Virus record (IMG/VR): IMGVR_UViG_3300032731_000114
Coordinates: 1 to 36,252 of that record
Length of the DNA: 36,252 nt
Reading direction: 5' to 3' (one strand)
Origin: a virus
Every line of letters begins with the position of its first letter. Within the stretch, counting starts at the first letter, position 1. The translations under genes and the position numbers were made by a program. Under the pieces are notes generated by a model. It was not told the origin of the DNA and made no database searches. It worked only from the letters and a program-made list of their open reading frames with translations. This document shows, piece by piece, positions 2,843 to 26,933 of the stretch.

Positions 2843-2846
2843 TCCG

Positions 2847-3458
2847 ATGACGGAAGTCTTCGAGAGTGCCTTCCAGAGCCCAGAGGACGAGTCCTCTGGG
2901 TTGGGCATCCGTCCGGTCGTCTTCGACATCCTGGCGACCGACATGGAGACCAGTCTCCTCCCCGAGGGGTTGAAGATGGTCCTCCATGTGAACCCCAAGT
3001 CCATGAACTTCACCTGGAGCAAGGTCATCTCCCGCATCCAGACCAAGGGGGGTTGGGTCGAGCAGCACTGGGGAGAAGGCCCCAGGAACGTCAGCTTCGA
3101 GCAGGCCACGGGGGGCTTCAAGAGGCTGTACGGTGGTTTGTCCAACATCACCGGACCTGGACCTACTGGGGACGGATTCGATGCGGGTGGGACGAGGCGG
3201 GACACCATCGCCTACGACAAATACCTGGACATGCTCGCCCTGTTCCACAACAACGGCTCGGTCTACGACCGCAGGGGTCAGATCGTCTTCCAGGGCATCA
3301 TCAAGATCACCTTCGACGGAGGGGCATACTTCGGTTGGTTCAACGACTTCACGGTGCAGGAAACTGCTGAGAAGGGTTACCAATTCACCCTGACCAGCTC
3401 CTTCACGATCTCCCACGAGGCGTGGGTGCTGCACACCCTCGGCTCGTTGTCCCTGTGA
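2847..3458 (+). CDS. Baseplate hub / tube adaptor protein (CIS tube / LysM-adaptor-like), short paralog
   Basis: This 203-aa protein probably sits at the junction of tail tube and baseplate hub. It carries VNPKSMNFTWSKVI at about residues 48-61, then WGEGPRNVSFEQATGGF at about 75-91, and a C-terminal beta region with GQIVFQG and FNDFTVQET at about 144-175. The 'NP..M.F.W.K' then 'WGE....S...TGGF' pattern resembles tube-adaptor proteins of contractile phages and injection systems (Afp7 / CIS tube protein type); that is recognition by eye. The same arrangement recurs in the next gene, so the two are paralogs. The ATG lies 4 nt after the tape measure stop, with only a weak AAGG upstream, which suggests coupled translation. 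I cannot tell whether it corresponds to T4 gp53, gp48/gp54 or a LysM adaptor. Confidence 0.6.
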   Translation: MTEVFESAFQSPEDESSGLGIRPVVFDILATDMETSLLPEGLKMVLHVNPKSMNFTWSKVISRIQTKGGWVEQHWGEGPRNVSFEQATGGFKRLYGGLSNITGPGPTGDGFDAGGTRRDTIAYDKYLDMLALFHNNGSVYDRRGQIVFQGIIKITFDGGAYFGWFNDFTVQETAEKGYQFTLTSSFTISHEAWVLHTLGSLSL

Positions 3459-3469
3459 GGTATTGAACA

Positions 3470-9519: not shown

Positions 9520-11979
9520 ATGGTCGATCCTACTGGTCGCAGCCATATCCCCCAGGCCAAGATTGAGGCTGAACTTGGACGGGCGTCCAGGGCCAAGCAG
9601 ATGTCCCCGAGCCGGGGTACTTCAGCCTATGCCCTCGGCATGTGTCGGGTCGTCGAGGTCAACTATGAGGAGTTCCTTGTCACCCTTCGGGTCGTCCAGG
9701 GGGCCGATGATGAGTACGAGCACGTCCCGGTGCCCCTCACCTTCCCCGGAGCGGGAGCACGGCATTTCTTCGGGGCGATGCCTCAGATCGGCGACTACTG
9801 CGTGGTGGGGTGGACTCCCCAGGAGAGTGCAGGAACGGGACGAGATCCTATTGGGTCCCGCATCCCCATCATTGTGTCGTGGGTTATCCCTGGTGCATGG
9901 CCTGGACAGGATTGGCTCACCACCCAGGACTTCGAGGCCGACGAGTACGACTTCACCGAGAAGGGCTCCTCCATGGTGGAAGGAGCCCACGTCCGAGTCC
10001 GCCATAAGCTCCCCCATTTGCAGCCTGGGAACATCGCTGCCTGTTCAGCTCAGGGCTCCGACCTGTTCCTCGACGAGGGGGTGCTCCTAGCCAACCGGCG
10101 TGGCAATGAAATTCGTCTCCGGGACCAGGACCAGGCGTTCGTGCTCCGTTCCCTCCAGCAGTTCCATGTGGGAGCGGGCTTCCGGATCTACGGCGGCATG
10201 GTCCAGCGGGATGCCACCCTCCTGGCCACCCAGGTCGTGTCCGACGGCAAGCGGTGGGATGGCAACCGCATCGTGGACGGCGATGGAGAGCCCATTCCTA
10301 TCCAAGACCTGGAGGAGTGGTCGGGATACCCCCAAGGGGCTCTCCTCCCAGCCGAGCTGCTCCGCCGGAACTACACCAGTCAGGGGCTTGGGGGTGCGGC
10401 CTTTGCGTTGCCGAAGAACCTGGACCCCTATGCCATCCTTGGACAGGGCTTGTTCCTCGATGGGTCCGGGCTCGTTGCAGCAGGCCACGGCACGGACGCC
10501 GTGTACGGTGGCAAGGGTATGTACCGGGTGGCGGCCACAGGGACAGTCAACTCGGTGGCGAACGGAAACGACCTGCCGACGTTCACCGAACATCGGCTGG
10601 AAGTGGCCCACACCTCGGATGGTCGCCTCCCGGTGACGGAGCAGACCGACGGTTTCGATGCGGACCGACTCCCCAAGAACCCGGAAGGGGCAGCCGTCAC
10701 CGATTTGTCCCAGAACCGGCCCTACGTCGAGGTCGTTCACGGCAGCGTGGTGGGGAACGATCCCTTCACTCAGGAGGGGAGATCCCAGTACGGCCTCCCC
10801 CTGGCTCCCGAGGTGATGACCATCGACAACGAGGCCACCGGGTCCGTGTCGGTGGCTCCACAGCTTGTCCCCAACCCCTCGGACTGGAGAGCACAGGCCG
10901 CCTCGTTGTTCCGCATTCGTCCGCCGATGGACAACTGGGGAAGCGGGGCCTTCTGTGCCTTCACGAAGGACGGTCGCTTCAAGGGCTACCTCGGTGGAGA
11001 CCCCAAGGAGGACTCCCTCCAGCTCGCTTGCGAGGGCAATGCCCGAATCGCTCTCGGAGGACAGTTGTTCCTCCAGTTCCACGGACCGCTGAAGATCAAC
11101 CACGCCTCCCAGGGGGATGAATCTAACCGGGGCCTGATTTTCCGCAGCTCCACATCAGCGGTGGTGATCGAGGGCGGCGGGGTTTTAGAGGACGATACCC
11201 AGGTCCAGAACCTCTCGCCGTCTAGCCCTGATGGGATGCCGGATGACAAACCCAGCGTCCTGATCAAGGGGCAGAACGCGGTCAACATCGAGGCCAACAC
11301 GGCGGTCAACATCGACGGCGGTCAGCGGGCTTCGATGAAGGCGTCCCAGGCCATCATCAACGGGACCAACAACACCCAGGTCAAGGCGGGGGATCGCCTC
11401 TCCCTGAGCGGCAAGCAGCATGAGCTGACGGTCACGGGGAGGAGCAATCAGAGCTTCTCGGGGCCGAAGGACTCCAACATCTCGGACCTCCCCTTGCGGG
11501 AGACCACGTTCACGGGGTCGATGATCCCGCCCGATTCGGACGTGGACAAGCACACCTACGAGGTGGGCAGTCGCAAGGAGGTGTTCAACGCCGGGAACCA
11601 CCACACCCAGATGCAGGTCGGCGACATGACCTACGAGACCCTGGGTGGGACGTGGAAGGCCAAGTCGGTGGAGAACACCGCCGCCATGTCCCCAAGCGGT
11701 TGGGATGTGTCCGTGACGAGCGGGACGGTTGCGGTGGAGGCCAAGGCGGGAGCAGCAACCCTGAAGGGCTCCGTGTCGGCCACGGTGTCGAGTCAGGGAC
11801 GGGCCACGGTGAGCGGAGCATCTGGGGTGACTCTGGGTGGACCAGTCGAAGGAACGAAGCTGGGCGGTATCGTCAGTGGTGGGGACCAAAACCCCATCAA
11901 CGGTCAGCCTCTCAGCTCGCCCCTCAACGGGAAGATGGGCAGCTCGGGACATACCCTCGGTCCGGCGGTGAGCACATGA
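9520..11979 (+). CDS. Baseplate central spike (gp5/gpV/VgrG-like), OB domain plus beta-helix needle
   Basis: This 819-aa protein is the likely membrane-piercing spike under the hub. Residues about 43-125 form an OB-fold of the Phage_base_V type: GMCRVVEVNYEEFLVTLRVV, then VPVPLTFPGAGARHFFGAMP, QIGDYCVVGW and RIPIIVSWV. A middle domain at about 185-285 contains GVLLANRRGNEIRLRDQDQA and YGGMVQRDATLL. The C-terminal part from about 585 is a repetitive beta region with alternating Val/Ile and small residues (NAVNIEANTAVNIDGGQ, later VSVTSGTVAVEAKAGAA and VSATVSSQGRATVSGAS), as expected of the triple-stranded beta-helix needle of T4 gp5-like spikes. No lysozyme domain is in this chain, unlike T4 gp5; that activity appears to be in the hub upstream. 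Start: ATG 9520, 6 nt after the hub stop, with GGGAGAGGGG at 9501-9510. The stop overlaps the next ATG (ATGA). Confidence 0.85.
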   Translation: MVDPTGRSHIPQAKIEAELGRASRAKQMSPSRGTSAYALGMCRVVEVNYEEFLVTLRVVQGADDEYEHVPVPLTFPGAGARHFFGAMPQIGDYCVVGWTPQESAGTGRDPIGSRIPIIVSWVIPGAWPGQDWLTTQDFEADEYDFTEKGSSMVEGAHVRVRHKLPHLQPGNIAACSAQGSDLFLDEGVLLANRRGNEIRLRDQDQAFVLRSLQQFHVGAGFRIYGGMVQRDATLLATQVVSDGKRWDGNRIVDGDGEPIPIQDLEEWSGYPQGALLPAELLRRNYTSQGLGGAAFALPKNLDPYAILGQGLFLDGSGLVAAGHGTDAVYGGKGMYRVAATGTVNSVANGNDLPTFTEHRLEVAHTSDGRLPVTEQTDGFDADRLPKNPEGAAVTDLSQNRPYVEVVHGSVVGNDPFTQEGRSQYGLPLAPEVMTIDNEATGSVSVAPQLVPNPSDWRAQAASLFRIRPPMDNWGSGAFCAFTKDGRFKGYLGGDPKEDSLQLACEGNARIALGGQLFLQFHGPLKINHASQGDESNRGLIFRSSTSAVVIEGGGVLEDDTQVQNLSPSSPDGMPDDKPSVLIKGQNAVNIEANTAVNIDGGQRASMKASQAIINGTNNTQVKAGDRLSLSGKQHELTVTGRSNQSFSGPKDSNISDLPLRETTFTGSMIPPDSDVDKHTYEVGSRKEVFNAGNHHTQMQVGDMTYETLGGTWKAKSVENTAAMSPSGWDVSVTSGTVAVEAKAGAATLKGSVSATVSSQGRATVSGASGVTLGGPVEGTKLGGIVSGGDQNPINGQPLSSPLNGKMGSSGHTLGPAVST

Positions 11980-12566
11980 GTTTGTCGGGAGCCCAGGTGA
12001 GCGGGGACATGGCGTTGGCGGCCACCTTCTTCGGGTGGAACGGCACGTCGATGAACCGGCTCGCCCAGGTGGTGGGCCAGGCGGTCTACGAGTGGGCCAT
12101 CATCCCGACCAACATGGCCCTGACTGGTAACGTCAAGGGGACCGCCGGAGCGGGGAAGGTGAGTGGGAAGCTGATTGTGCCACCAGGAGCGGACATCATC
12201 CTGGTGGAGTTCAAGGCATCGGGTATCGAGGGGACGCAAGCAGCTTCTCTGGCGTCCCTCGTGTCCACGGGGGTCTCGATGGCCTTCACGAAGGCGGGGC
12301 AGTACGAGGGGACCTCGACCGGCGTGAGCATCGGAGTGGACAACTCGAAAGTATCTCTGGTGAATGCCAAGACGTTGGGGTTCCAACTGATGGCGTCCTT
12401 GAGCCAGGTGTTCGGGGCACAGGGAACGGCGGCGAGCTTGTTGTTCTCGGCGATGTCGAAGGGTATCGCCAAGCAGCTTAAACGGGGAACAGGTGTGGGA
12501 GCGGTGACACCCGTGACAGCAGGGGTCTTCCCCTCTACCGGCACAAGCGCGAGCAAGGTGGTCTAG
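11976..12566 (+). CDS. Unknown 196-aa tail/baseplate protein following the spike
   Basis: I do not recognise this family. The start is taken as ATG 11976 because it makes an ATGA overlap with the spike stop; the frame is open further upstream (to 11652), but that part lies entirely over spike coding sequence and is probably spurious. The protein begins MSLSGAQVSGDMALAATFFG, has Gly/Ala/Lys beta stretches (GNVKGTAGAGKVSGKLIVPP), and two Ala/Ser/Leu-rich segments that look like amphipathic helices (TQAASLASLVSTGVSMAF at about 89-106 and QLMASLSQVFGAQGTAASLL further on), ending in KQLKRGTG and a Ser/Thr-rich tail. In many contractile systems a PAAR tip protein is encoded next to the spike, but I see no PAAR His/Cys pattern here. 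Position suggests a spike-tip, spike-assembly or hub accessory role; this is inference. Confidence 0.6.
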   Translation: MSLSGAQVSGDMALAATFFGWNGTSMNRLAQVVGQAVYEWAIIPTNMALTGNVKGTAGAGKVSGKLIVPPGADIILVEFKASGIEGTQAASLASLVSTGVSMAFTKAGQYEGTSTGVSIGVDNSKVSLVNAKTLGFQLMASLSQVFGAQGTAASLLFSAMSKGIAKQLKRGTGVGAVTPVTAGVFPSTGTSASKVV

Positions 12567-12569
12567 CAG

Positions 12570-15500
12570 ATGGGATTTGATCTGAGCGGATACGTGCTCC
12601 GAGGAGCGATGGCGGCCAACGCCAACTCGCAGACGACGGCCTTGGCCGAGAGCGGTGTGGTGCGGGACATGAAGCCCGTGCCCGGCTCTTGGACAATGGA
12701 GCCCTACAGCCCCCCCCTGGTGGAGCTGGACGCCGATCAGTACCGAGCGGCCATCCTCGATGCTCCTGGTGAGATCACGACCGAGTACCTGGTCTGGGCT
12801 GCCAACTCGGCCCAGCTCGGCATCATCGACACGACTGACCCCAACTGGCTGAAGATCGACGGCTCTGGGTTCATCCCAGAAGGCTCGATGACGGTCGAGG
12901 ACGCCCAGGGGAACTTCTACAACGACGGCACCAACCGGGTGATCGTGACGGACAACGGTGGCCGGGCCATCTCGGACATCGAGGCCATCCAGGTCAAGGT
13001 GCAGGGGACGCTCCTTCCACTGACCATCCCCTCGGCGTGGTTCACCTCGGTGGATGCGAACGCAGGGCTCGTCGAGGTCAACCAGGCGTTCCTCGATGCG
13101 AACCTCGGTGGTGGGCTCTCCCAGAGCCGGGGTGACGCCATCGTGGGGGTGGCGTACTTCGTGTCCTCTTCCCGCTTCTGGTGGACGAGGAACGATGTCT
13201 ACGAGACCCGCTTCGGGTGGAACGGTCGGAACCAGCGGTGGGAGCCCTTCAAGGGAACCGGCGTTCGGGACATCGGCCTTCTCGACTTCGACGGGGAGTA
13301 CGTGCTCTCTCCGCTGCCCACAGGGACCAGCATCGGCTCGTACCTGCCTGGTGTAGCTGGAGACCCCACCCAGTACGCCATGGTCCGCATCGGTCGGGTG
13401 CCGGACAGCGGCTCGTACCCGGTGGCGGAGAGCACGAGCCCCACGGGTTTCTCGGGTCTCCTCGTCGTGGACGATGACGAAGCGGGTGAGGTCTACGACT
13501 TCAGCGGTTCAACCCCCCCTCTGGCCGGGATCGTGGGTTTCTCCACGGGCCAGATCCAATGGAACCCGGCCTTCGTGCAGGAGTTCGCTGGGGAACACGT
13601 CTGGTACAGCTACCGGAGCTTCGAGGAGCAGGCGGACGGAATCGTAGCTCCTCTCCTCGATGCCAAGACGGGACCCTTGTTCGTGGCCCCGATCCCCAGT
13701 CCCGAGGACTACCCCTTCATCCGAATCGGGACACGGAGTCACCTGTCTCCGATCCTGGTCGAGACTGATGCCGAGCTGGAGACCCTGACCCTTTCCGAGA
13801 CCGAGGTGGGGGTCTCCCTCGCCTCCGGCAAGCTCCTGTTCCCTCCGGACCTGGTAGCCAAAGCGGACCCGACCTCCCTGGACTTCGATCCCAACTACCT
13901 GGCGGCGACCGTCCTCTACGATGGAGTGGCCCTCAACCAAGCCCCGCAACCCGCCAGGGAACCCGTGAAGCTGGTGGACAACCTCGGGAACCCTGCGGTC
14001 GCTCCTCTGCCGCCCTTCTTCGATCTGTTCGTTCCCGAGGCCGACCCCTTCGGGGCAGATGGCCTGGGCGTGTCGGGGATGCTCCACGTCCTCGACGGCA
14101 CGGGGGCAGTCCCGACGGTGACGGCCCAGCCACCGGGCGTCCGGCCTGGTGGGGATAACAGCCTGTTCACCACCACGGGATTGATCCGTGAGGCCGAAGT
14201 CCGTGACCTGGGAGCGGAGAACGTCACCATTGGAGACACATTCCTGTTCGCCTCCATCCGGGCAATCGAACAGCTCGAAGTGGTGGACACCGAGCTGGAT
14301 GTCCCCGAGTTCACCTTCAAGGTCAAGGGCGGTCGAGCGGTTGTGGCCCGTCAGGCGAGTCCCTTCTACGTGGGGTCTGGCACAGGCTCGAAGGCCAAGC
14401 TGAACTTCAACGCCGCCCGGAAGGTGCCGCCTGGGGACAACCTCTACTTCCTCCAGGCCCTCCTGAAGCCCTCCCGATATACGACAAAGGGCCGGATGTA
14501 CTCCCGCGTCCGGGACGAGTTCACCCTCGACGGCAACGAAGGGCTCTACCTCGCTATCAACGGAACGCCCTACCAGTGGAGTGCTGCAACTCTGGGAGCT
14601 GGCACCTTCTCGGCAGAGGAAGTATCGGCCAGTATCCTCAATGATTCCGCTGCCTTGAGCGGCCCGCCCAACCCCATCTCCAGTGACCCAGATGCCAACG
14701 TGTGGGCCTTGCACGGCCACATTGTGGTGGAGACTCTTTCGGCGGGTGGCGTCATCGAGATCGGCTGGGGGTCGATCCCGAGTGAGAGGGAATTCTCTGG
14801 GGCGGCGGCTCTGGGGCTCTTGCCGGGGTGGCGGGTCGAAGCGGGTGCCGGGACGTGGCGTGCGGACTCGGGCATGAGTTTCGGGGTGCATCGGAGCCCG
14901 CTCAACCGGGACTACAGCGAGGCGGTCTCCGACTTCCAGAACCGCTACCGATTCACCGACCAGCTCTTGACGGGGAGCAACGGCCTGCAAGCCCAGCCGG
15001 TGTTGAACCTCGACTACCCGCCCCTCCAAGACGTGGCGGGGTACGACACCAATGTGTTCTTCCGGCTGACGACGGCAGTTCGGAACGGTCCCACTGTGAC
15101 GCTGGTGGCGACCTACCTGGAGAACCTCATTGATGTGGCGTACCGCTTCGAGGAGGACCACTTCCTCTGGCTCGAACGGGATTCGAACGTCGTTGCCATC
15201 GAGCAACCGATCCAGGCCCTTACCTTGGGACAGCTCAACGTGCTGCCCGAGACCATGCTCGGGGTCGAGCCCAACCCACAGGGCGGCCTCTCTGTCTCGA
15301 TGGGAGGTCCCTACGAGGCTTTGACCCAGGGTAGCGACTACCTCCTCCCTGATGATGGAGCGGCGGGGTACGCCCTCCTGGTCGAGGAGATCGCCGGACT
15401 GATCGGCATGGGGTCGAGGGGCTCCTGGGTCGAGGGAACGACGACCTTCTTCAATGACTTTCAGGCCGGGCAGGCGAACTTCACGGCCCTTGGGGTCACC

Positions 15501-18500
15501 AAAGGTGACCTGTTGAAAATCCCGTCGGGGGATTCGGAAGGCTGGTACACGGTTTCCATGACCCCGACGGTGCCGGACGACCTGGATGTGACCCCGACTT
15601 TCCTGGCGGACTCCGGGGATCGCCTGGCCTCGTGGGAGGTCTACGACGGCTACCCGGATGACGTGTATGACCCGTCGATCCTCGCCGACGTGCAGTTCGT
15701 GGACTTCAACCACCTTCCAGAGGAGGTGTTCCACATCCGGCGATTGTCCCCGCTCGGGACAATTCCCAAGACCCCGGTAGCTCAGGAGGCGGATCGCCTC
15801 CAGGCGGTGGTGACGGATGCCCTCCTGAGCAACCGCCCTATCGCCATCCGGTATACGTTGACGGGAACCAACCCGGACAACCTCGCCTCGTTGACCCCGT
15901 TGCCGGACAGCGAGCTGGGGACCATCGCCAACGACTCGCTCTACGTGCCTGGTGCAGTTCCCCGCTCGCCCTTCAATCTCCGGTTTACCGACGAGGCGTT
16001 CGCCATCCTGGTGGGGGACACGCGGTTCGAACACGGGGTGGATCTGACGGGCGTGACCCAGTTCAGCAACCCCTTCCCGGCGAACGAGATCGAGTACCTG
16101 ACCACGACCGGTGAGCTGAAGTTCGGCTCCCAGGTGCTCACCGACTACGACCAGTCCCTCGTCTACTGGGTAGGTGAGTTCCTCGACCCTACCCTCCTGG
16201 CGGCCCAGACGGTGGAGTACGACCCGAGCACGGGATACCTGAACATCTCCGAGGCCGACATGCTGGCCCATCCCTCGGAGGAGGTGTACTTCGTCGAGCA
16301 GATGGTCACGGAGCAGCGGACGGACGTGGCCTTCTCCCCGATGGCCAGCTCGTTCGCCTTCTTGCGGCCCAACCGAGATCGCCAGATCGTCGAGGTGGAC
16401 TTCCTCGAAGCGGACCCGGCGGGGCACAAGAAGCTGGACGACGAGGGGAACCCCATCGAGGTCCGGGGCCTTTTGCCGGTGTTCGTCAAGGGTGAGCAAG
16501 CCACGAGGGTCGATTCCAAGACCTACAGCTTCAACCCAGTGGACACGGACGGCTTCCGCAGGACGGTGTTCGAGGCGGTGGAACCGACGGTCTGGGTGGA
16601 CGACTTCATCCAGAACTTCGGCACCGAGGACATGACCATCGACTTCGAGGCCAACGAGCTGCACTTCTTGGTAGACCTCGAAGCCACGTCTGCCGTCCGG
16701 ATCTCCTACGCCGTGGTCAATGCCTTCGGTGGGGAGAAGGCGTACTCCTCGGGGACGTACCCGGCCTACCGTCCGCCCTTCTTCTTGGAAGAAGGGCAAG
16801 ACGTGTTCGTGCTGGAGACCGACCGTACTGGGGACATCCGGAACGGGATGCTGATGCGGTTGGGGGGTAATCCCTTCTACATCAAGTGGGTGGTCTACGA
16901 CTCGGCCACGGACCAGACGACGGTGACGGTGTTCCCAACTCCCATCACCGAGGTGGGTTCCAGAGCGCCTGGAAACGATGTTCTCACCCTCCTCACCGAC
17001 AGGCCGGTTGCGACCGAGGTGGATGGGGTGCCCGTCCTGGATGCTCCTGCGGGCTTCCTGATGCTCGTCGAGGTGGACTGGGAGCCCGTGGATCGGGGGC
17101 AAACTACCATCGACTTCCAGGGGGACGTGACCCAGTTCGCGGTGCCGGGACATCTGCTGGACCTGGGTGGTGAGCCCCACATCATTTCCGATGCCCAGAT
17201 CTCGGAAGATGGTCAGGTCACGACGGTGCAGGTCACTTCGCCCTTCACGACGGGGTTCGCCATGGAGGAGGAGCACGAGGTCAAGCTCTCGGTCCGCCCC
17301 ATGTACCCGCCGATGCCAAGGCAGTTCCTCGGGCTGGGGGCCTTCGTCGAGAGCGAGGAATTCGAGTTGATCTTGTTGGGTGAGCTGAATGAAGAGGGGA
17401 ATGAGCTGCCAGGAAGGAGCTTGATCCTCGGCATCGAGTACACGGTGGATTCGGACACGGGCAACGTCACGTTGCTGGAGCCCATCCAAGCTCCGCTGAT
17501 GCCCAACCAGAAGCTCCTGTTCCGTCACACCAGGCTGGACACCTTGAAGCCTGGCTTCCTCAAGGGACGCCTGAGCTTGCCCAGGTACTCGACCCTCTAT
17601 CGCTACAACACGGTGCCCAGTACGGCCAATGGGCTGCTGGGCGGTGTCTTGGAAGCCTCCTACAGCTTCTACTCACCGGACTCCTTCTACTGCCGCATCC
17701 TCCCGATGGAGGAGTACGCCCCCGAGGTGGCTCAGGCTGTGGCAGGAACGCTCTCTGCCCTACAAGCAGGCCAGGGTCCCACCGTGACTACGGGAGCTGA
17801 AGTCGAACAAGAGCAAGGTCTGGAGAGCCTCACGACCCAGCGATCTGACTTGACGGACACGGACCGGGGTGCTCGCTCCTTCCTGACGTACTACAACCAG
17901 GTGGTCGAGACCTTCGAGCAGGTCATCGAGGCGATCCGTGGGGACGTAATCGGAGATCGTCACGGCAAGTTCCGTTTCTTCGTGGGGCGAGACAAGCTCT
18001 ACACGCCACCAGGCTACGAGGACAGCATCACGGGGCTCCTGAACGCCAGGAACCTGTGGTCCGAGGTATTCCAGGAGGCTGCCTCGTACCTGACGCCTCC
18101 GTTCGAGTCGCCGATCCTCGAAGACGATCCGCTGCTAAACCCGCTGTTCGCCACCGTGCTTCTCGCCAAGCTGGAGGGTATCCCTGGTACGCCGTGGATG
18201 ATGGACCCGGTGGTGCTCGACATCCTGGCCGAGCGGCAGAAGATCCTGATCTCTAACGACATCGACGACCGGGTGATCGTGGGTCTTGCTCGTCCGGAGT
18301 TCCGATGGGACCCCATCCTCGGGCCGGTGTTCCGTCCCAAGGGTGATTTCGACCGGATGGCTTCGCCCCATCCGTTGTCCCGCCTGTTCCCCGAGCGCAC
18401 GCGAGCGTTCTTCTTGTCTTACCCTGGGCTGAAGTCGAACCCGGCTCTCCGTGACCCGGTGAACAACAGCATCGAGCGGAAGGTCTGGGCGGGGAACTAC

Positions 18501-21500
18501 TCGTTCCTCACCGAGATGGAGCGGCCCACCTTCTCCTGGGAGCAGGGGCTCACACCGCCCACCTTCGCTTCGACCTTCCAGACGGAGATCGGGGCCATCT
18601 CGAACCCCGTGCTGGGCACCATCGACCAGATCCGCAACATCTTCTTGGACAAGAGGCGTCCCCGAGCCCGTGTCTGGAACTACTATCCGGACGGCATCGA
18701 GCAAGACCAGTTCGGCACGGGCTTCCCCGCTGCGGACATCACTCGACCTGCGGCGGTCCTGACGCCACTCCTGATCGCCGATTTCCCGGTGGACCCTGAG
18801 ACCGGCGGACCGGACATGAGCCGGTTCATCGCCAACAGCGGGGATCTCGAAGACCTGACCACGGGGGATGCGGCTCTGCGGACTCCGGCCTGGTCCGACT
18901 TCCCAGACCCCGTGATGCTCCTCAAGGGCATCCCGGACGGCCAGACGTTCATCCTGGGATACCGGGGTGGCTCTGCCACGGGCGCTGGGGGTTCAGTCCG
19001 ACGCTCTGGAGTGTTCCTCGACACCGTGCAGGACGGGGTGATCATCACCTTCAAGTCCCTGACCAAGCTCGGGGACGACATCCCCATCAACGACGCTGCG
19101 GACATCCTGGTACTCGACGATTTCGAGACCGGTGGGGAGATGACCCTGGAACGTGGGGACACCCTGGCCGCCATGTCCCCATCGCTGATGCCGGTGGAGA
19201 TGGACGAGCCCCCGACCAACGAGCAGCTCAACCTCCTGAAGGCGTCTTCCCCCAACTACCGACGAGGGTTCGACGTGGGCATCCGGCGGAAGGCGGGCGT
19301 CCTTCGAGACCTCTCATTGCCGGGTGGGGATGACGACATCCCGTTCGACCTTCAGAGACTCTTTGCCCAGAACACACCGTTGCCCATGTCCGAGCTGGAG
19401 GGCTTCGTTGAGTTCGCCAATGGAGATGTCTCCCCGCTCCAGATTCCGGCCCTGCTGGGAGAGACCAAGGATGACACGGGCGACTGGCAGATTCCCTACC
19501 TGACGTTGGGGAACACCGAGAAGGACCGCTTCCAGGAGATCCAGATCGGTATCTCCAAGGTCATCGGGACCATGAGTGCCGACGGCACCCAGTACGTGTA
19601 CCCCAACGAGGTCCGGGGTGCCGACGGGGCCATCGACACGGTGGGAGGTGCTCTGCAAGTCCCAGCCACGTTGGTCACGGGGGTCAACTACCAGCCGACG
19701 GGAGTGGGTACGGGATTCGTGGACGAGTACGACCTCCTGCTGATGGAGTACGGCTCTCCGGCGGCTCTGCCCCAGGCCAGCCAGGGTTGGCTCTCGGTGG
19801 GACGCATTCAGGCGGACCCCCTCTCGACCGATAGCCTGGTCGAGCCCCCGAGGTTCGTGACCCAGACGGCCCAGGGGGACGCGATCCGGTACACGATGGA
19901 CAACGCCATCGTTCACATCGTCACGCCGCCGCCTACAGCCCCGTTTACGATGGTCAACACCAGTGGTTGTCAGATCACGGTGGACAAGAGTGCTGGCGTG
20001 GGAAATCCCGGCATCTCGACCTTCGCCATGGACTCCATTGGGCAGCTCCGCCTTGATGACGGGGCCGGTGGAGCAGGCGTTGGCGGCTTGAACGACCTGT
20101 TCGTTAACACCAATGTTATCACTCTGGAGCTGTGGGCTCGGGAAGCCATCGGGCCTGTTGTTCCTGGGGACATCGTACTGACCATCACCTTCGACGCGAG
20201 CGGTGGTGGGACGGTCACGGGGCCGGACGGTGTGGTGGTTCCCGTTACGGTGATCTTCGGAACGGGAGTGGCAGACAAGAGCATCCAGGTCACGGGCTAC
20301 AACGTGGGCACGGAGTTCTTCGACCTTCCGGCCCATCCCGAGATGCCGAGCACGGACACGGGCGGTGGAGTGTGGGTCACGGACTATGCCTACGACCTCC
20401 GCATCCACCTCGACACGTACACGGCAGGGACAGGGGCCTCGGTCACGGGCTACATCTCCAGCGACCGCCTGACCTTCAACGACGTGGTGGACCTGCGGAC
20501 CTCCTTTGAGCGGGGTGCGGTGCATCCTGTGGGCGGCCAGTCGGTCCAACTGGAGCTGATCGTCTACGAGTGCCTGACTGAGAGCGACCCGGCCAGCACC
20601 ATCAACCGAGACATCAACGGGGCGGGTCCTGTGCCCCTGACGTTCCTCACTCGGGCGGACGACTACCTGGAGCCCTGGCTGCAGGGGACATCCGACAATG
20701 GCATCGGCATCTGGGTGGACGCCACGGGTGTCGGAGCTGGGGATGAGCTGGGAGCTATCCGGGTGATGGCATTCGAGGGCTACGGGGACACGCCCATCGT
20801 GGACTCGGACCTCCGCTTCAGCCTGATCCCGTCCTCGAACAAGGACGAGATCGGGACACCGGACCCCAACGGCGAGATCTGTGAGGGGACGGCTTTGGTC
20901 CGAGACACCCTCCAGAGCATCTTCTGGGAAGTGACTCCCTCCTTGGGAGCGGTCTCGAAGATCCAACACGGGGATGTGGTCGAAGTCCTGAGCGGTTCCA
21001 CGGTGGCAGGGACCATCAAGGCGGGGACGTACCTGGTGCGGCACGCGGTCGAGGAGAACACGGGGCCAGTGGTGGTGCTGCCAAGGCCCGTTCGAGCCTT
21101 GACCCTCCTGACGGTAGCCTCCGCCACGGGCTGGGCCGACATGCGGTTCCCCAAGATCGCCAACACGACCGATGGGGCTGACCCGGCGATCAACGACACG
21201 GCGGATACGGTGCGGCTCACCGACATCTACGACACCGAGCTGACGGGTGTATCCCCGACAGGGAATGCCTTTGCGGCACCTGGTGGGACCGACCACTACA
21301 TCTACTTCGTCACGACCAACGATGGAGCGGACAGCTTCACCGTTCGGGCCTTGTACACGGCCATCGAGACCAACCCGGTGTCTCCCAACTACCGCAAGGT
21401 GACGCTGGACAACACCAGCTTCGAGGACGAGACCGGGGCTGGGATCTCCGCTGCAACCTTCTACGCTGCCCTGAGCGAAGGCATGGCGGTCTCGGGGATG

Positions 21501-23837
21501 GTCTACTTCAAGGTCTTGGTCGCTGACGAGCAGAGCCTCCCAGAGAACAATGCCGTGGGTCACAACGCCCAGATCGCCCCGGCTCCCCAGCCTTGGTGCA
21601 TCTACGGCTTCGGTGGCATCACCATCTCGACGGAAGACCCGATCCCCGCTACGACCTTGACCTACGAGTTCGAGGCCGATGTCAACGAGATCGAGGACAT
21701 CTCGGCTTCAGCTCCCGCTACGGATCATGTCTACGTCCAGGAGTCGCCGGTCACGGCCTCCAGCTTGTTCGTCACACCCGAGGAAACCACGGTCTTCGAC
21801 AATGTGGCGGACCTCCTCGACCTCTCAGGCTTCGACCAGGCGGTGGGGGGTCCCGTATGGACCGCCTTGCGGAACAACGCTGGGGTCATGTGCCTCCTCC
21901 CCAACGACCGCTTCACCACTGAGCACTCGGCCTGGGCCTCGGGTGTTGGGGCTGACGTGGGCTCCAACGGCTTCTGGGCTACCTCCGGCATCTTCATCGA
22001 GCCCTCCTTCAGCTTGATGGCTCAGGACTTGGGAGCCAACGCTGCTGGGGACCAACGACTCGTAGACCAGCTCACGGTAGCGGTTGGAGCTGCGAGCATC
22101 GGCTTCCGCTTCGATGGCAACGATGAGGTGGTGGACATCCAGGTTCGGAGAATCCGTCGATTCCATGACGTGAGCACCGAGCTGGAAGGGAGCCTCACTC
22201 CGCTCCGGTTCGCCTACGAGACCCGCCGTGGGGACGTGACCGCCTACGCCCCGACGACCAAACAGAAGGGTGAGCTGGAAGCGACTGGGGCCACCCAGCT
22301 CGGTCCGTTCGACGACCCAGACGTGAACATCAACGGTGGGGACATCTTCCGGCTGATCGATCCGACGGGGGCTCTCGTCGAGACCATCGAAGTGGCTGGG
22401 GTCATGTCGGCAACCAAGCTGTTGCTCCGGCGACCCGGCCTCACGGACCCAGGCTTCCTGGCCAACCCGTCGCTCTACTCCTTCGAGGTGTACCTGCGGA
22501 AGCCTCCGGTGCCCCATGAGCAGAGCAACGAGCAGCTCCTTGACCTGGTGACGGATGAGATCCTCCACGAGACCAAGCCGGACTACGTGAACCAGACGGG
22601 CGGCTATGTCCCCCTTCCGCCGACTCCGGCGGACTGGGCGGATAACGCCAACCACCTGTATGACGACTCCCTGGCTGTGACCTTCCCCGAGCTGGGGATT
22701 CAAGAAGGGGACATCGTACTCGTCGATTCGGCAGGGGAGGTCCGAGGTTCCACTGGGGTGGCTTCTCCCGAGGAGAGCGGTATCCGTCCGTTCGGGGACA
22801 AGGGGATCGAGGAGAGGGCCTCTGGGACCATCCCGAATGGTGTGACCGGTGATCCGGTCTACGATCCGGGGGCTCCCAATCCGGTAGATGACAACCGGGG
22901 CTACTACCGAGTGGACGAGGTGGAGTCCGACCACCTGGTGCTCACGGCGGGGTACACGGGCGACTACGCCGGAAACCTCGGTGGTGACATCAAGTTCCCC
23001 GACAACGCGGTGCTCCAGCAAGACCTGGGGTACGTCGTCTACCCGACCATCCACAACTCAGTGGTCGGTCCCTCCAACGAAGAGGGGCAGATGGACCTGC
23101 GGCCCACCCAGCTCGCGGGCTTCGACAATGCCAGCGTGTTCAACCCGGCATTGCCCAACAGCTTCCGGGTCAGCGACTACTCCATCCGGCCCTTCGGTTA
23201 CCGGGTGCTCCGGCCCACGACCCTGTTCTCCGAGGAGAGCATCGACCTGGTGCTGATGATACGGGAGAGGATGCTCTCCTTGATCGAGCACCTCCAAGGA
23301 GCGATGGAGGGGGACAAGGCAGGCGACTACTACGTGTTCCAGGATGACCTTCATGCCAGGGACATTGGAACCCCCACCGACCCCGAATCCGGGCTGGGCG
23401 TCTACCACAACGCTTTGCTCCTCGACTTGCTGGGACGGGTCGATGTGTACCGTTTTGCCAGTGATTCCGACGCCTTGAGCGTCGTGGACCGACGCTTCTG
23501 GATCAGGGATGAGCAGCTCGACGAGCTGACTCCGGCCCTGGACGGCATCAGCATGAGGCTGGTAGCTGGCAGCGGTCAGGAGGCGTACACCTCCTACAAC
23601 GACACGACGAGTGCGACCCCTGGTGGGGCGGTGAGGCCGGTGTTGCCAGACCTGATCGACATCACGCTCAATGTGTCAGACCGTTTCCGGGACTTGCGGT
23701 TCGCCTGGGTGAAGTACCGGACGAATCGTACTGAGGGCACGTTGACCCAGATCGACCGTTTCGACGAGGAGTTGCCGGACGTGATCAAGGAGCAGGAGGA
23801 ATTCCTCCTCCTGAAGAAGGCGGAGTTGTTCGGATGA
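12570..23837 (+). CDS. Giant 3755-aa virion/baseplate structural protein, function unknown
   Basis: One uninterrupted 11.3-kb frame with a clear start (AAGGTGG at 12555-12561, ATG 3 nt after the previous stop). I do not recognise a family for the whole chain. It is acidic, low in Lys and Cys, and mostly beta-rich. Short beta modules of the form G-D-x-L-x-I followed by G-x-Y-x-V or a similar strand occur near residues 979 (GDLLKIPSGDSEGWYTV), 2801, 3257 and 3380; two related modules near 1426 (GMLMRLGGNPFYIKW) and 1527 (GHLLDLGGEPHIIS) stand close together. A helical region lies at about 1713-1900 (RSFLTYYNQVVETFEQVIEAI). Residues about 2450-2720 look Ig- or lectin-like, with many Gly/Thr/Val strands. 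The C-terminus is helical (VLMIRERMLSLIEHLQGAM near 3565; KEQEEFLLLKKAELFG at the end). No signal peptide, protease motif, Rhs/YD repeats or toxin domain was seen. Location between spike and wedge genes implies a peripheral baseplate scaffold or fibre; this is inference. Confidence 0.75.
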   Translation: MGFDLSGYVLRGAMAANANSQTTALAESGVVRDMKPVPGSWTMEPYSPPLVELDADQYRAAILDAPGEITTEYLVWAANSAQLGIIDTTDPNWLKIDGSGFIPEGSMTVEDAQGNFYNDGTNRVIVTDNGGRAISDIEAIQVKVQGTLLPLTIPSAWFTSVDANAGLVEVNQAFLDANLGGGLSQSRGDAIVGVAYFVSSSRFWWTRNDVYETRFGWNGRNQRWEPFKGTGVRDIGLLDFDGEYVLSPLPTGTSIGSYLPGVAGDPTQYAMVRIGRVPDSGSYPVAESTSPTGFSGLLVVDDDEAGEVYDFSGSTPPLAGIVGFSTGQIQWNPAFVQEFAGEHVWYSYRSFEEQADGIVAPLLDAKTGPLFVAPIPSPEDYPFIRIGTRSHLSPILVETDAELETLTLSETEVGVSLASGKLLFPPDLVAKADPTSLDFDPNYLAATVLYDGVALNQAPQPAREPVKLVDNLGNPAVAPLPPFFDLFVPEADPFGADGLGVSGMLHVLDGTGAVPTVTAQPPGVRPGGDNSLFTTTGLIREAEVRDLGAENVTIGDTFLFASIRAIEQLEVVDTELDVPEFTFKVKGGRAVVARQASPFYVGSGTGSKAKLNFNAARKVPPGDNLYFLQALLKPSRYTTKGRMYSRVRDEFTLDGNEGLYLAINGTPYQWSAATLGAGTFSAEEVSASILNDSAALSGPPNPISSDPDANVWALHGHIVVETLSAGGVIEIGWGSIPSEREFSGAAALGLLPGWRVEAGAGTWRADSGMSFGVHRSPLNRDYSEAVSDFQNRYRFTDQLLTGSNGLQAQPVLNLDYPPLQDVAGYDTNVFFRLTTAVRNGPTVTLVATYLENLIDVAYRFEEDHFLWLERDSNVVAIEQPIQALTLGQLNVLPETMLGVEPNPQGGLSVSMGGPYEALTQGSDYLLPDDGAAGYALLVEEIAGLIGMGSRGSWVEGTTTFFNDFQAGQANFTALGVTKGDLLKIPSGDSEGWYTVSMTPTVPDDLDVTPTFLADSGDRLASWEVYDGYPDDVYDPSILADVQFVDFNHLPEEVFHIRRLSPLGTIPKTPVAQEADRLQAVVTDALLSNRPIAIRYTLTGTNPDNLASLTPLPDSELGTIANDSLYVPGAVPRSPFNLRFTDEAFAILVGDTRFEHGVDLTGVTQFSNPFPANEIEYLTTTGELKFGSQVLTDYDQSLVYWVGEFLDPTLLAAQTVEYDPSTGYLNISEADMLAHPSEEVYFVEQMVTEQRTDVAFSPMASSFAFLRPNRDRQIVEVDFLEADPAGHKKLDDEGNPIEVRGLLPVFVKGEQATRVDSKTYSFNPVDTDGFRRTVFEAVEPTVWVDDFIQNFGTEDMTIDFEANELHFLVDLEATSAVRISYAVVNAFGGEKAYSSGTYPAYRPPFFLEEGQDVFVLETDRTGDIRNGMLMRLGGNPFYIKWVVYDSATDQTTVTVFPTPITEVGSRAPGNDVLTLLTDRPVATEVDGVPVLDAPAGFLMLVEVDWEPVDRGQTTIDFQGDVTQFAVPGHLLDLGGEPHIISDAQISEDGQVTTVQVTSPFTTGFAMEEEHEVKLSVRPMYPPMPRQFLGLGAFVESEEFELILLGELNEEGNELPGRSLILGIEYTVDSDTGNVTLLEPIQAPLMPNQKLLFRHTRLDTLKPGFLKGRLSLPRYSTLYRYNTVPSTANGLLGGVLEASYSFYSPDSFYCRILPMEEYAPEVAQAVAGTLSALQAGQGPTVTTGAEVEQEQGLESLTTQRSDLTDTDRGARSFLTYYNQVVETFEQVIEAIRGDVIGDRHGKFRFFVGRDKLYTPPGYEDSITGLLNARNLWSEVFQEAASYLTPPFESPILEDDPLLNPLFATVLLAKLEGIPGTPWMMDPVVLDILAERQKILISNDIDDRVIVGLARPEFRWDPILGPVFRPKGDFDRMASPHPLSRLFPERTRAFFLSYPGLKSNPALRDPVNNSIERKVWAGNYSFLTEMERPTFSWEQGLTPPTFASTFQTEIGAISNPVLGTIDQIRNIFLDKRRPRARVWNYYPDGIEQDQFGTGFPAADITRPAAVLTPLLIADFPVDPETGGPDMSRFIANSGDLEDLTTGDAALRTPAWSDFPDPVMLLKGIPDGQTFILGYRGGSATGAGGSVRRSGVFLDTVQDGVIITFKSLTKLGDDIPINDAADILVLDDFETGGEMTLERGDTLAAMSPSLMPVEMDEPPTNEQLNLLKASSPNYRRGFDVGIRRKAGVLRDLSLPGGDDDIPFDLQRLFAQNTPLPMSELEGFVEFANGDVSPLQIPALLGETKDDTGDWQIPYLTLGNTEKDRFQEIQIGISKVIGTMSADGTQYVYPNEVRGADGAIDTVGGALQVPATLVTGVNYQPTGVGTGFVDEYDLLLMEYGSPAALPQASQGWLSVGRIQADPLSTDSLVEPPRFVTQTAQGDAIRYTMDNAIVHIVTPPPTAPFTMVNTSGCQITVDKSAGVGNPGISTFAMDSIGQLRLDDGAGGAGVGGLNDLFVNTNVITLELWAREAIGPVVPGDIVLTITFDASGGGTVTGPDGVVVPVTVIFGTGVADKSIQVTGYNVGTEFFDLPAHPEMPSTDTGGGVWVTDYAYDLRIHLDTYTAGTGASVTGYISSDRLTFNDVVDLRTSFERGAVHPVGGQSVQLELIVYECLTESDPASTINRDINGAGPVPLTFLTRADDYLEPWLQGTSDNGIGIWVDATGVGAGDELGAIRVMAFEGYGDTPIVDSDLRFSLIPSSNKDEIGTPDPNGEICEGTALVRDTLQSIFWEVTPSLGAVSKIQHGDVVEVLSGSTVAGTIKAGTYLVRHAVEENTGPVVVLPRPVRALTLLTVASATGWADMRFPKIANTTDGADPAINDTADTVRLTDIYDTELTGVSPTGNAFAAPGGTDHYIYFVTTNDGADSFTVRALYTAIETNPVSPNYRKVTLDNTSFEDETGAGISAATFYAALSEGMAVSGMVYFKVLVADEQSLPENNAVGHNAQIAPAPQPWCIYGFGGITISTEDPIPATTLTYEFEADVNEIEDISASAPATDHVYVQESPVTASSLFVTPEETTVFDNVADLLDLSGFDQAVGGPVWTALRNNAGVMCLLPNDRFTTEHSAWASGVGADVGSNGFWATSGIFIEPSFSLMAQDLGANAAGDQRLVDQLTVAVGAASIGFRFDGNDEVVDIQVRRIRRFHDVSTELEGSLTPLRFAYETRRGDVTAYAPTTKQKGELEATGATQLGPFDDPDVNINGGDIFRLIDPTGALVETIEVAGVMSATKLLLRRPGLTDPGFLANPSLYSFEVYLRKPPVPHEQSNEQLLDLVTDEILHETKPDYVNQTGGYVPLPPTPADWADNANHLYDDSLAVTFPELGIQEGDIVLVDSAGEVRGSTGVASPEESGIRPFGDKGIEERASGTIPNGVTGDPVYDPGAPNPVDDNRGYYRVDEVESDHLVLTAGYTGDYAGNLGGDIKFPDNAVLQQDLGYVVYPTIHNSVVGPSNEEGQMDLRPTQLAGFDNASVFNPALPNSFRVSDYSIRPFGYRVLRPTTLFSEESIDLVLMIRERMLSLIEHLQGAMEGDKAGDYYVFQDDLHARDIGTPTDPESGLGVYHNALLLDLLGRVDVYRFASDSDALSVVDRRFWIRDEQLDELTPALDGISMRLVAGSGQEAYTSYNDTTSATPGGAVRPVLPDLIDITLNVSDRFRDLRFAWVKYRTNRTEGTLTQIDRFDEELPDVIKEQEEFLLLKKAELFG

Positions 23838-24073
23838 CCGATACTTTCGAGACACCCGAGGAGCTGCTGACCGAGCTGAAGCGTCGTGGCGTGTTGCCTG
23901 GTACGTGGGAGGAGCGGGGTGGTCACAAGATCGAGCCCGAGTTCGTCCAGCAGCAGAAGGAGCTTCTCCTCAAGACCCAGGACATGCTGAAGGGCAAGCT
24001 CAAGGAGGACCAGCATACGTTGGAGCACCTCCGGCAGACACGGGACCGCCTGAAGCACGGCGGAGGCTCCTGA
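23834..24073 (+). CDS. Small charged coiled-coil protein, 79 aa
   Basis: A short protein starting by ATGA overlap with the stop of the giant gene, preceded by AAGGCGGAG, so its translation is probably coupled to it. It is strongly charged and helical: PEELLTELKRRGVLPGTW at the N-terminus, then a heptad-like coiled coil from about residue 37 to 75 (EFVQQQKELLLKTQDMLKGK, DQHTLEHLRQTRDRLK), ending in GGGS. No known family is recognised. Good RBS, tight packing on both sides and coherent amino-acid pattern make it a real gene. It could be an assembly chaperone or a small clamp between the giant protein and the next 952-aa protein; this is a guess from position. Confidence 0.65.
   Translation: MTDTFETPEELLTELKRRGVLPGTWEERGGHKIEPEFVQQQKELLLKTQDMLKGKLKEDQHTLEHLRQTRDRLKHGGGS
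24062..24066 (+). promoter_or_regulatory. Ribosome binding site for the 952-aa gene
   Basis: GGAGG lies 8 nt before ATG 24075, inside the last codons of the 79-aa gene, and supports that start. The stop of the upstream gene and this ATG are separated by one base. Confidence 0.55.
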
Positions 24074-24074
24074 T

Positions 24075-26933
24075 ATGGCAGACACGGACATCATTGGGAC
24101 TTGGCAGACCGGCTCCTTGTGGGAGTGGCCCGAGGAGCTGCTCGCCTTCAAGGAAATCTTTTCCACCATCGCCGACTTCATCATCACGGTGTTGGAGATC
24201 GCCGTCACGATCCTGGAGCTGGTCAAGGCGTTCATGATCGGCTACCTGGACCCGCTGTTCGCCCTGGTCCAGTTCATCATCGGGGAGATCGAGAACTTCA
24301 TCCGGGACCTGCAACAGATGGGGGTGTTCCTGTCTGGCGACTGGGGCCTGGTCAACTGGCCCTTCGAGGACTTGCTGGGAGGCTACCAGGCATACGAGCG
24401 TCGAATGGTGTCCCGCTTCACCGACCGCACCGACCCCAACCGCCCTGACGTGTCTCCGAGTAGCCAGGTCTTGTCCCTATTCCTCTATTCCTCTGTGGAT
24501 GCCACGGCGGTCTACCAGCTTTACCAGCTCGTCCGGCAGTTCGCCAACCTGTTCAACTTCACGCCCTCGGCGAACCCGCTTCCCCAGTGCGCCGGGTTGA
24601 AGGCGAGCTACGGCAACGAGGACGTGGGGATCTTCGGCCTCGCCGAGCTGTTCGAAGGGCAATTCAAGTCGGGGTTCACGGGCGACCCTCCCCAGATGGT
24701 CAACCTCAAGTGGCAGCTCGCCCGGACCGTCCGACGGCCTCTGGGCATCACGGTTCCCCTCCCTCCACCTCCGGGCTTCCTGATCGAGGTCTCCACCGTG
24801 CAAGAGGGCTTGCCGGTCTACTTCGACCGGGGTGATCAGGCCCAGCCCACGAAGGTCGAAGGCAACGATGGGGAGCAAGTCGAGCCCCGTCAGAGCGCCC
24901 AGGTGATGGACCCTGCTGGTGAGCAACCCTTGGTCGTGTTCGGTGGGGCGGACGTGCTCGACATCAGCCGGGACTTGGAGTTCAACCGCTACGTGGACTC
25001 GGATGGCAACCTCAAAGATGGGGCTCGGAGGGTGTACGCCAAGCTGAACCAGTCGGAGCCTCTCCCCATTCCCCTGGACCAGCTCAAACTGGATGACGGC
25101 ACGTACCTTCTCCAGCGGACCTTCATCCACCGGACGGGTTCCGTCCCGACGCCGGGGCTCTCCTACGGGGCTTCCATCCTGTACGAGGACTTGCCCCATG
25201 CGGCGACGATTTCGGAGAGCAATGGGGAAGTGACGCTGGAGGATGACGGGCAGGCTCCGGTGTACTACATCAGGGTCTCCTCCATCGACAAAGCCGTGAC
25301 GCAGGGTGGTGATCCCGGTGAGGACACCTTCCTCTACAAGTTCCTTCTGGAGGGAACGCAGCTCGATAGTCCGGGCCAGGTCCGAGCTTTGCTGCCGCCC
25401 ACGGGTTCCTCGACGACAGCGGTTTCGTTCGCCAGTAAGAGCCAGGTGTCCCTCCCGTTGGAGATTACGGTCCCATCGGAGAACACGACTTCCTACCTCA
25501 ACTCGCTGGCAACGGCCCTAGCGATCCTGGTGCTGAGTCGATCTGACCTCTCCTCCATCTACGACGACGACAAAATCTCGGATGAGGACCGACAGGCGTT
25601 CCTTTTCGGGGCCGACACGATGGACGCTGAAGGATTCCATCTCCGTAACTGGACCCAGTACCCCCAGCACGCTGGCTCGGGCGGGACAGCCACTAACCTG
25701 GAGAGCTTCAAGGCCCTGGTCGCCGAGGTCGTTCGGGAAGATGACCCCTCGGTGTACTTCGCCAAGGAGGTCACGGCGGTCGAGTTCAGGGGCACCCTTT
25801 ACCAGCGGTGCATGGACGTAGCCCGGCAGCTTTATACTCGGTCTGGTCCCCTCTCCGGGGCGCTGGAGGAGATGGTCGTGGCCTCGACCGAGGAGCTGAC
25901 GACCTTCAAATGGTCGGACCTCAACGGCACCTACGGGGCAGAGTTCCCCGAGCAGACCATCTTGGAATCGTTGTATCCGATTGATCCCACGACGACAGAG
26001 GACCAGAACGGTTTGGGAATCAACCTCCAGAGCCTTTTCGTCGGCAAGTCCGAGCAGCTCCAGTGGTTTAGGGACAATCGGCTTCTCTTGGGGTGGGACG
26101 GGGAGTTCCTGAGCTACACGCAGAAGCCGTGGCCCTACATCTTGAGGTCCGAGGAGGTGATACTCCGGATGCTGGGACGTACTTTCGGGGAGATCGAAAC
26201 CCAACGGTTCGAGGACTGGTACACCGTTTTCCAGGAGGCCCAAGAGGACGGACGCTGTTTCGAGGTCGATGGCGAGAGGAAGTGTTGGGTGCCCGCCAAG
26301 GGCCGGGACAGTGCGCCCTCTACCCTCCCGTCAGCGATGAAGCTCTCCGTCGAGGACTTCCCAGTGCTTTACTCCGATCTGGATGCGGTGACGGAGCTGA
26401 TAGGGGGGTGGGCTGTGACCTGTCGGGGGGCCTTCCGGGTTTACAACAACGGGGTGCTCTACGACCAAGCCCAGGTCGTCCTCAACATCGCCGTGGCTGC
26501 CCAGTCGAGGGCGGTGAATGACACTCAGTGGATCGCCTTGCGGTGGCCCGGTTCCTGGCCTCCCATCGAGCGGCTCACCCAGACGATCCTCAACTGGATG
26601 GCTACCATTCAGGAGGGGGTGAAGGCGGTGACGGACGCCCTGATCGCCTACATCAACTTCATCGAGTCGAGGATCATCGAGCTGCAAAACCTGATCCGCC
26701 GCATCCAGGCCATCATTGACTCCATCGTGCTGTTCGAGGTGCCGGAGGCGAGCTACCTGGTGACCTTCTCCTCGGGGACGGACGGGACACTGACCGACTT
26801 CATCTCGGCGGACAACAAGCCCCAGGACAGCATCGCCAACTACGGGGCTGGAGCGGTGGCGGTGTTCCCCATCATTCCGGCGATGGGATTCCTGATCAAC
26901 CTGATGTTCCCCGAGAGCGGGCTGGAGACCTAG
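24075..26933 (+). CDS. Unknown 952-aa virion structural protein with helical ends
   Basis: Not recognised as a known family. Near the N-terminus, residues about 22-90 form long hydrophobic/amphipathic helices (FSTIADFIITVLEIAVTILE, LFALVQFIIGEIENFI). The middle (about 100-820) is mixed, with beta-rich segments including VDSDGNLKDGARRVYAKLNQ and VYYIRVSSIDKAV. A second helical block comes at about 833-887 (QTILNWMATIQEGVKAVTDA, ESRIIELQNLIRRIQAIIDS), followed by a hydrophobic end (VAVFPIIPAMGFLINLMFP). The two helical blocks resemble each other in style, so the ends might pack together or bind membrane or tube; I cannot show homology. No signal peptide or enzyme motif was seen. It sits between the giant protein and the wedge genes, one base after the 79-aa gene and one base before the 311-aa gene, which suggests one baseplate subassembly. 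Confidence 0.7.
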   Translation: MADTDIIGTWQTGSLWEWPEELLAFKEIFSTIADFIITVLEIAVTILELVKAFMIGYLDPLFALVQFIIGEIENFIRDLQQMGVFLSGDWGLVNWPFEDLLGGYQAYERRMVSRFTDRTDPNRPDVSPSSQVLSLFLYSSVDATAVYQLYQLVRQFANLFNFTPSANPLPQCAGLKASYGNEDVGIFGLAELFEGQFKSGFTGDPPQMVNLKWQLARTVRRPLGITVPLPPPPGFLIEVSTVQEGLPVYFDRGDQAQPTKVEGNDGEQVEPRQSAQVMDPAGEQPLVVFGGADVLDISRDLEFNRYVDSDGNLKDGARRVYAKLNQSEPLPIPLDQLKLDDGTYLLQRTFIHRTGSVPTPGLSYGASILYEDLPHAATISESNGEVTLEDDGQAPVYYIRVSSIDKAVTQGGDPGEDTFLYKFLLEGTQLDSPGQVRALLPPTGSSTTAVSFASKSQVSLPLEITVPSENTTSYLNSLATALAILVLSRSDLSSIYDDDKISDEDRQAFLFGADTMDAEGFHLRNWTQYPQHAGSGGTATNLESFKALVAEVVREDDPSVYFAKEVTAVEFRGTLYQRCMDVARQLYTRSGPLSGALEEMVVASTEELTTFKWSDLNGTYGAEFPEQTILESLYPIDPTTTEDQNGLGINLQSLFVGKSEQLQWFRDNRLLLGWDGEFLSYTQKPWPYILRSEEVILRMLGRTFGEIETQRFEDWYTVFQEAQEDGRCFEVDGERKCWVPAKGRDSAPSTLPSAMKLSVEDFPVLYSDLDAVTELIGGWAVTCRGAFRVYNNGVLYDQAQVVLNIAVAAQSRAVNDTQWIALRWPGSWPPIERLTQTILNWMATIQEGVKAVTDALIAYINFIESRIIELQNLIRRIQAIIDSIVLFEVPEASYLVTFSSGTDGTLTDFISADNKPQDSIANYGAGAVAVFPIIPAMGFLINLMFPESGLET

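Follow-up and report, generated by a model that had tools for sequence, protein, structure and literature searches.

The window, by which we mean the whole stretch of 36,252 nucleotides analyzed here, contains one gene that takes up 11,268 of its bases (31%). It runs on the + strand from an ATG at 12570 to a TGA at 23837 with no internal stop; AAGGTGG lies 8 bases upstream of the ATG, and the stop of the preceding gene falls 3 bases before it. An earlier note, made from the letters of the window alone, had described one uninterrupted 11.3-kb frame with a good start, and these features of the 3755-aa frame bear that out. Its characterization of the product as acidic and Cys-poor also stands, with 527 Asp and Glu residues against 242 Lys and Arg and 6 Cys. 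Searches of the window for tRNAs and Rfam families returned no matches. The genes of the region are as follows.

4843..9513, + strand: tape-measure-like protein with a tail lysozyme domain (Phage_lysozyme2, 6.6e-8)
9520..11979, + strand: hub/spike-like protein, 819 aa (weak matches and position)
11976..12566, + strand: 196-aa protein in the gap between hub and giant
12570..23837, + strand: the giant, 3755 aa and 406 kDa; putative structural protein of the baseplate wedge or periphery
23834..24073, + strand: 79-aa gene whose start overlaps the end of the giant; relatives keep a C-terminal GG(G)
24075..26933, + strand: 952-aa candidate partner protein with hydrophobic, helical-looking ends
26935..27870, + strand: 311-aa protein conserved in the operon of relatives
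27920..29125, + strand: gp25/W-like baseplate wedge protein/sheath initiator (domain at residues 214-312, E 1.2e-5)
29126..32617, + strand: gp6/J-like baseplate wedge protein (Baseplate_J, 8.6e-14)
32614..34158, + strand: F514, the gene after gp6, in a gpI-like position; family members carry the giant's barrel module

The gp25 and Baseplate_J assignments are firmer than the hub/spike call, which draws on a Phage_base_V match below cut-off (E 0.022), a PHROG hub/lysozyme match (E 0.027) and, for the rest, position. The lysozyme domain of the tape-measure-like protein lies near its N-terminus (residues 181-315) and scores above the Pfam cut-off. The earlier note had placed the giant between spike and wedge genes; the placement is right, but neither a spike-like nor a wedge gene adjoins it, as the 196-aa gene fills the gap on the hub side and the 79-, 952-, and 311-aa genes fill that on the gp25 side, the first of these sharing the ATGA at 23834 with the end of the giant. 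Within the giant gene lies an antisense ORF (13509-17528, - strand, 1339 aa). We set it aside as a rival gene: antisense open length in relatives is variable, reaching 1750 codons with a median of 399, so that the ORF seems to be a side effect of GC-rich codon usage. The giant frame itself is conserved over its full length in dozens of contigs, which excludes a chance ORF.

Sequence searches of Pfam, PHROG, and the PDB, run with the giant itself, a profile of 13 members, and profiles of slices, yielded no family for it, and the whole profile had no match among PDB sequences even at E 10. The earlier note had recognized no family either, and the profile searches likewise gave no strong full-length match to a well-characterized one; in the literature searched, no published description of the family was found. 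Among annotated phages, tblastn returned a sole record matching along the whole query, LR745208.1 (33.5% identity), from an uncultured 485-kb phage. This phage is of the same broad kind as those of Al-Shayeb et al. 2020 (PMC7162821), who report that huge phages encode predicted proteins of up to 7,694 aa, some tentatively called structural; the passage of that paper on these proteins gives no family, neighborhood, or function for the giant.

A first scan of IMG/VR detected one relative, and a scan with a three-sequence alignment detected 180 on viral contigs, with 70 loci kept; a scan of genome contigs added two, in bacterial genome bins. Each locus holds one giant frame by phmmer, split in two in a single locus (L040). 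The 44 non-redundant homologs uncut by locus ends measure 3446-4168 aa (median 3724, CV 4%), their length differences being spread along the chain with few single insertions of more than 30 residues. Homologs align end to end with the window protein at ~36% identity. Across 48 members, pairwise identity ranges from 30 to 82% (mean 39%), and 117 alignment columns are invariant. Exactly one full copy was present in each of the 11 contigs of 206-536 kb that were tested. The uncultured huge phages that carry the giant form a wide lineage, in which it is a conserved core gene present in single copy; an anonymous gene thereby becomes a marker family, absent from Pfam and PHROGs and represented by one intact copy per large contig tested.

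The neighborhood is conserved along with the gene. Dozens of contigs share the order B203-C456-TMP-hub-TIP-giant-D952-E311-gp25-gp6-F514. The giant lies upstream of gp6 in all 47 gp6 loci with at least 7.5 kb of upstream sequence, and near the hub in 69 of 77 hub loci, usually ~0.6 kb after it and within 1 kb; both locus sets comprise the best-scoring relatives, so these fractions hold for the giant-bearing lineage and not for all phages. In two of the eight remaining hub loci the contig carries the giant elsewhere, and the other six are fragments of 40-167 kb that show none. Colinearity with hub, tape measure, gp25, and gp6 thus characterizes most loci. Among the exceptions, LR745208.1 keeps the giant and the 952-aa gene together, with gp6 on the opposite strand at a distance of over 20 kb; in this phage and a few contigs the pair stands apart from gp6 or the hub, so operon membership is not strict.

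The earlier note had named homologs confined to large contractile phages as support for its reading. They do occur in huge phages, and a sheath domain was detected in 3 of the 11 large contigs, all three matching PF17482 (one over cut-off, two weakly); PF04984 had no match in the 11. The PF17482 frames are 1662-1779 aa long (L248:5422-10419, - strand; L249:786-5774, + strand; L250:940-6279, + strand), and sheath proteins are usually far shorter, at 400-700 aa. PHROG searches matched none of these frames as a whole, and a PDB search with one of them was likewise negative.

We modeled two slices of the giant with AlphaFold from 48-row alignments, residues 1-1190 (pLDDT 84.4, pTM 0.78) and 2620-3755 (pLDDT 83.7, pTM 0.74), which together cover 62% of the chain. 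Both are predicted to consist mostly of strands arranged as chained beta-domains, with long helices near the C-terminus, so that the note's "mostly beta, modular" description holds for this 62%. The models and alignments delimit the following regions.

12858..13169, + strand: residues ~97-200, Ig/FN3-like beta-sandwich (model; weak fold match, Z ~3.5-4)
13176..13256, + strand: residues ~203-229, conserved motif FWWTRND...TRFGWN...RWEPFKG (alignment of 48 members)
14481..14852, + strand: residues 638-761, beta-domain like the sheath outer domain and flagellar cap FliD (fold match to model)
15396..15674, + strand: residues 943-1035, beta-barrel module (GDLLKIPSGDSEGWYTV...) (model and sequence recurrence)
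16782..17318, + strand: residues 1405-1583, pair of related modules side by side (hhalign probability 87%, 27% identity, 71 columns)
19767..21809, + strand: residues ~2400-3080, most variable part (low conservation, more gaps)
21987..23834, + strand: residues 3140-3755, conserved C-terminal block (alignment and model)

Within the motif, W205, N208, R214, F215, W224, and G229 are invariant in all 48 members. The C-terminal block contains a barrel resembling EF-Tu domain 2 (residues 3210-3318; Z 7.9, rmsd 2.5, 81 aligned), which also matches lambda gpJ (Z 7.0), and two modeled helices (residues 3555-3579 and 3691-3754). The weak fold matches fall largely on tail proteins, namely the XM1 and E217 sheaths, lambda gpJ, and the JBD30 and Chi tail tips; all are local with Z below 8, and such values can reflect common folds. 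A Foldseek search of the PDB with slice 2620-3755 gave a best E of 1.3e-3 at probability 0.15 and TM below 0.1, a result to which we gave no weight. The fold matches listed for the two slices include no T4 wedge protein, which at 62% of the chain excludes nothing, and neither sequence nor fold searches returned a match that would assign the giant a defined baseplate position.

Two of these modules resemble parts of particular tail proteins. The barrel at residues 943-1035 has fold matches in chains of the tail tube and tail tip and in endosialidases (Z ~5-7), and it recurs by sequence in the gene after gp6 (the F514 homologs) of many relatives, down to E 4e-13; in LR745208.1 the 1764-aa gene after gp6 holds several copies. 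This recurrence provides independent support for tail modules in the giant. The domain at residues 638-761 resembles in fold the contractile sheath outer domain and FliD D2-D3, with XM1 (7kh1; Z 7.8, rmsd 3.6, 107 aligned) and E217 (8fvg; Z 6.4, 109 aligned) as its matches. In contrast to sheath and FliD proteins, the giant devotes to this fold one domain of 3755 aa, and a Pfam sequence search with that domain was without match.

A sheath-like outer domain would suit a protein that decorates the sheath or wraps the tail outside the baseplate, as does the uncharacterized outer coil of the phage G tail (PMC8570332). Bacillus phage G is, together with Tunturi_5 (Acidobacteriota host), the nearest cultured phage by gp6. 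However, no giant homolog was detected in phage G or in Tunturi_5, and the giant is colinear with baseplate genes and not with sheath or tube genes; we regard a coil or sheath decoration as improbable.

Another suggestion of the earlier note was a ruler for baseplate diameter; the great length of the chain, roughly constant within the lineage, would speak for it. The gene contains a single weak tandem repeat of 2.5 copies, and neither DNA nor profile shows a repeat array beyond the one module pair. The slices hold folded beta-domains and not extended helix. Given the lack of repeats, the low length variation (CV 4%), and the slight correlation with the length of the tape measure (r 0.23, n 31), a ruler is hardly credible. 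We also rejected the giant as the tape measure: a separate tape-measure-like gene is present, the slices are beta-rich, and the giant's length barely follows that gene's.

Conservation along the chain bears on a further alternative, that of a host-binding tail fiber or side fiber encoded in the baseplate operon, with the variable part binding receptors. The weakest-conserved stretches are residues 1951-2025 and ~2400-3080, and conservation is strong again over the C-terminal 600 residues. In two relatives, L053 (16565-19153) and L037 (16868-19327), the variable region contains a ~75-aa domain with matches to many PHROGs (tail fiber, baseplate wedge, head decoration, Hc2); it is probably a mobile module of Ig-like type. 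When the window giant and 12 relatives were scanned against PHROGs, this promiscuous domain was shared by the two relatives, and the window giant was without match.

The variable region, the tail-fiber PHROGs among the matches of the ~75-aa domain, the fibers among the BFVD fold matches, and the large, beta-rich, acidic, Cys-poor chain are all compatible with a fiber. Against this, the C-terminus (residues 3140-3755) is among the well-conserved parts, with no hypervariable receptor-binding region there, which disfavors a receptor fiber; the earlier note had entertained a folded fiber held against the tail. All members can be aligned over the full chain, the gene is single copy, and both slices are well predicted as monomers, while a trimeric fiber would often be expected to model poorly alone. 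Its rate is also like that of hub and gp6: in a comparison with 20 loci, the window proteins have a median identity of 36% for the full-length giant, compared with 41% for the hub, 44% for gp6, 45% for gp25, 40% for the tape measure, and 31% for the 952-aa protein. An identity near the hub and gp6 level is the behavior of a structural core protein and not of a receptor-binding tip, and we consider a fiber unlikely.

Synteny with hub, gp25, and gp6, a copy number of one, the hub- and gp6-like rate, and the barrel common to F514 homologs together argue for the giant as a core structural protein of the baseplate in a lineage of huge contractile-tailed phages. We hold this to be the probable reading, and the protein probably belongs to the structure of the tail tip. 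Of the earlier note's proposal of a scaffold wrapping the baseplate, the synteny and slice models support, as an inference, a mostly beta chain of extended shape with a structural role in the baseplate region.

Single chains of this size beside baseplate genes have precedent. The earlier note had held that no baseplate protein approaches this size, which is incorrect: Kyanoviridae phages carry giants of 2995-7124 aa beside gp25-gp6. In Synechococcus phage Bellamy, gp25 and gp6 are directly followed by a 4067-aa protein annotated "baseplate wedge initiator" (gp111), and comparable genes occupy this position in P-TIM68 (4307 aa), S-SSM7 (gp7, 3007 aa), S-SZBM1 (6619 aa), Syn33 (6376 aa), and P-SSM7 (7124 aa), and likewise in Sf-FS3, ACG-2014f, and S-CAM3. 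The first 2999 residues of the Bellamy giant match 466 phage records, nearly all of them cyanophages, and PHROG 2885 is a 4179-position "baseplate wedge subunit." A second giant is often encoded in Kyanoviridae, two genes downstream of the first one (2522 aa in Bellamy, ~3000 aa in S-SSM7; L079:22364-29932, L081:19078-25749, and L083:23246-25863), giving two giants per baseplate region.

The gp7-type giants (PHROG 2885 and related) and the window giant are alike in being single chains of at least ~3000 aa encoded next to gp25 and gp6 in phages with contractile tails, and the former are annotated as baseplate wedge initiator, wedge subunit, or virion structural protein. The window giant could therefore be a diverged ortholog, given the similar size and common gp25/gp6 neighborhood, and the Bellamy wedge initiator ranks third among BFVD fold matches of the C-terminal slice. 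However, hhalign of the giant family against cyanophage gp7 in 500-column windows gave a best probability of 3.4%, on which we rejected homology at the profile level. The best hmmsearch match (E 0.002) lies in the variable region, and TM-scores are below 0.1. Gene order also differs: the cyanophage giant directly follows gp6, whereas the huge-phage giant lies upstream of gp25-gp6 with three genes between. With neither sequence nor profile homology detected between the two groups, orthology is very doubtful. The giant may nevertheless function like the cyanophage proteins, whose role is itself an annotation. What is new is the family itself; giant proteins beside baseplate genes were known already, in marine cyanophages.

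For the core baseplate component that we favor, the following arrangement can be envisaged. Several copies of the giant, likely six from baseplate symmetry, would assemble with the wedge as an extended scaffold of the wedge or baseplate periphery, as the cyanophage wedge-adjacent giants are annotated. The conserved N- and C-terminal blocks would contact invariant partners (hub or wedge and the 952-aa protein), and the variable region at ~2400-3080 would be exposed to solvent or host. Such a scaffold could hold the baseplate together until contraction and offer attachment sites for fibers.

We speculate further, and tentatively, that the giant replaces several T4-type wedge or periphery proteins through domain fusion, that it arose independently of the cyanophage giants, and that giant wedge scaffolds thus evolved at least twice. 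As part of the same speculation, the baseplate periphery of this lineage would be built from a few giant single chains, and their dedicated assembly partners would be the 952-aa protein and the ~79-aa protein that ends in GGG. If the scaffold reading is true, giant wedge-adjacent proteins have at least two origins, in unrelated groups of large contractile phages, raising the question of why large tails need giant proteins.

The analysis also names two overlooked companion genes, those of 79 and 952 aa, whose products are, from gene adjacency, the likeliest partners of the giant. The 952-aa gene stays with the giant even in contigs whose gp25 and gp6 lie elsewhere, and its product has, by inspection, hydrophobic helical-looking stretches at both the N- and C-terminal ends. 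The 79-aa gene is absent from the earlier note; its homologs occupy the gap that separates the giant from the 952-aa gene. Of 66 loci scanned, 58 have a short frame there whose C-terminus is GG or GGG; in 53 loci GGG falls within the last six residues, compared with 0.8% of background frames.

Both giant homologs on contigs binned with bacteria (L075 and L074) bear on the host, one bin being assigned to Terriglobia (Acidobacteriota). Together with the position of Tunturi_5 as nearest cultured gp6 relative, and allowing that the binning may be wrong, this hints that Acidobacteriota are among the hosts of the giant-bearing lineage.
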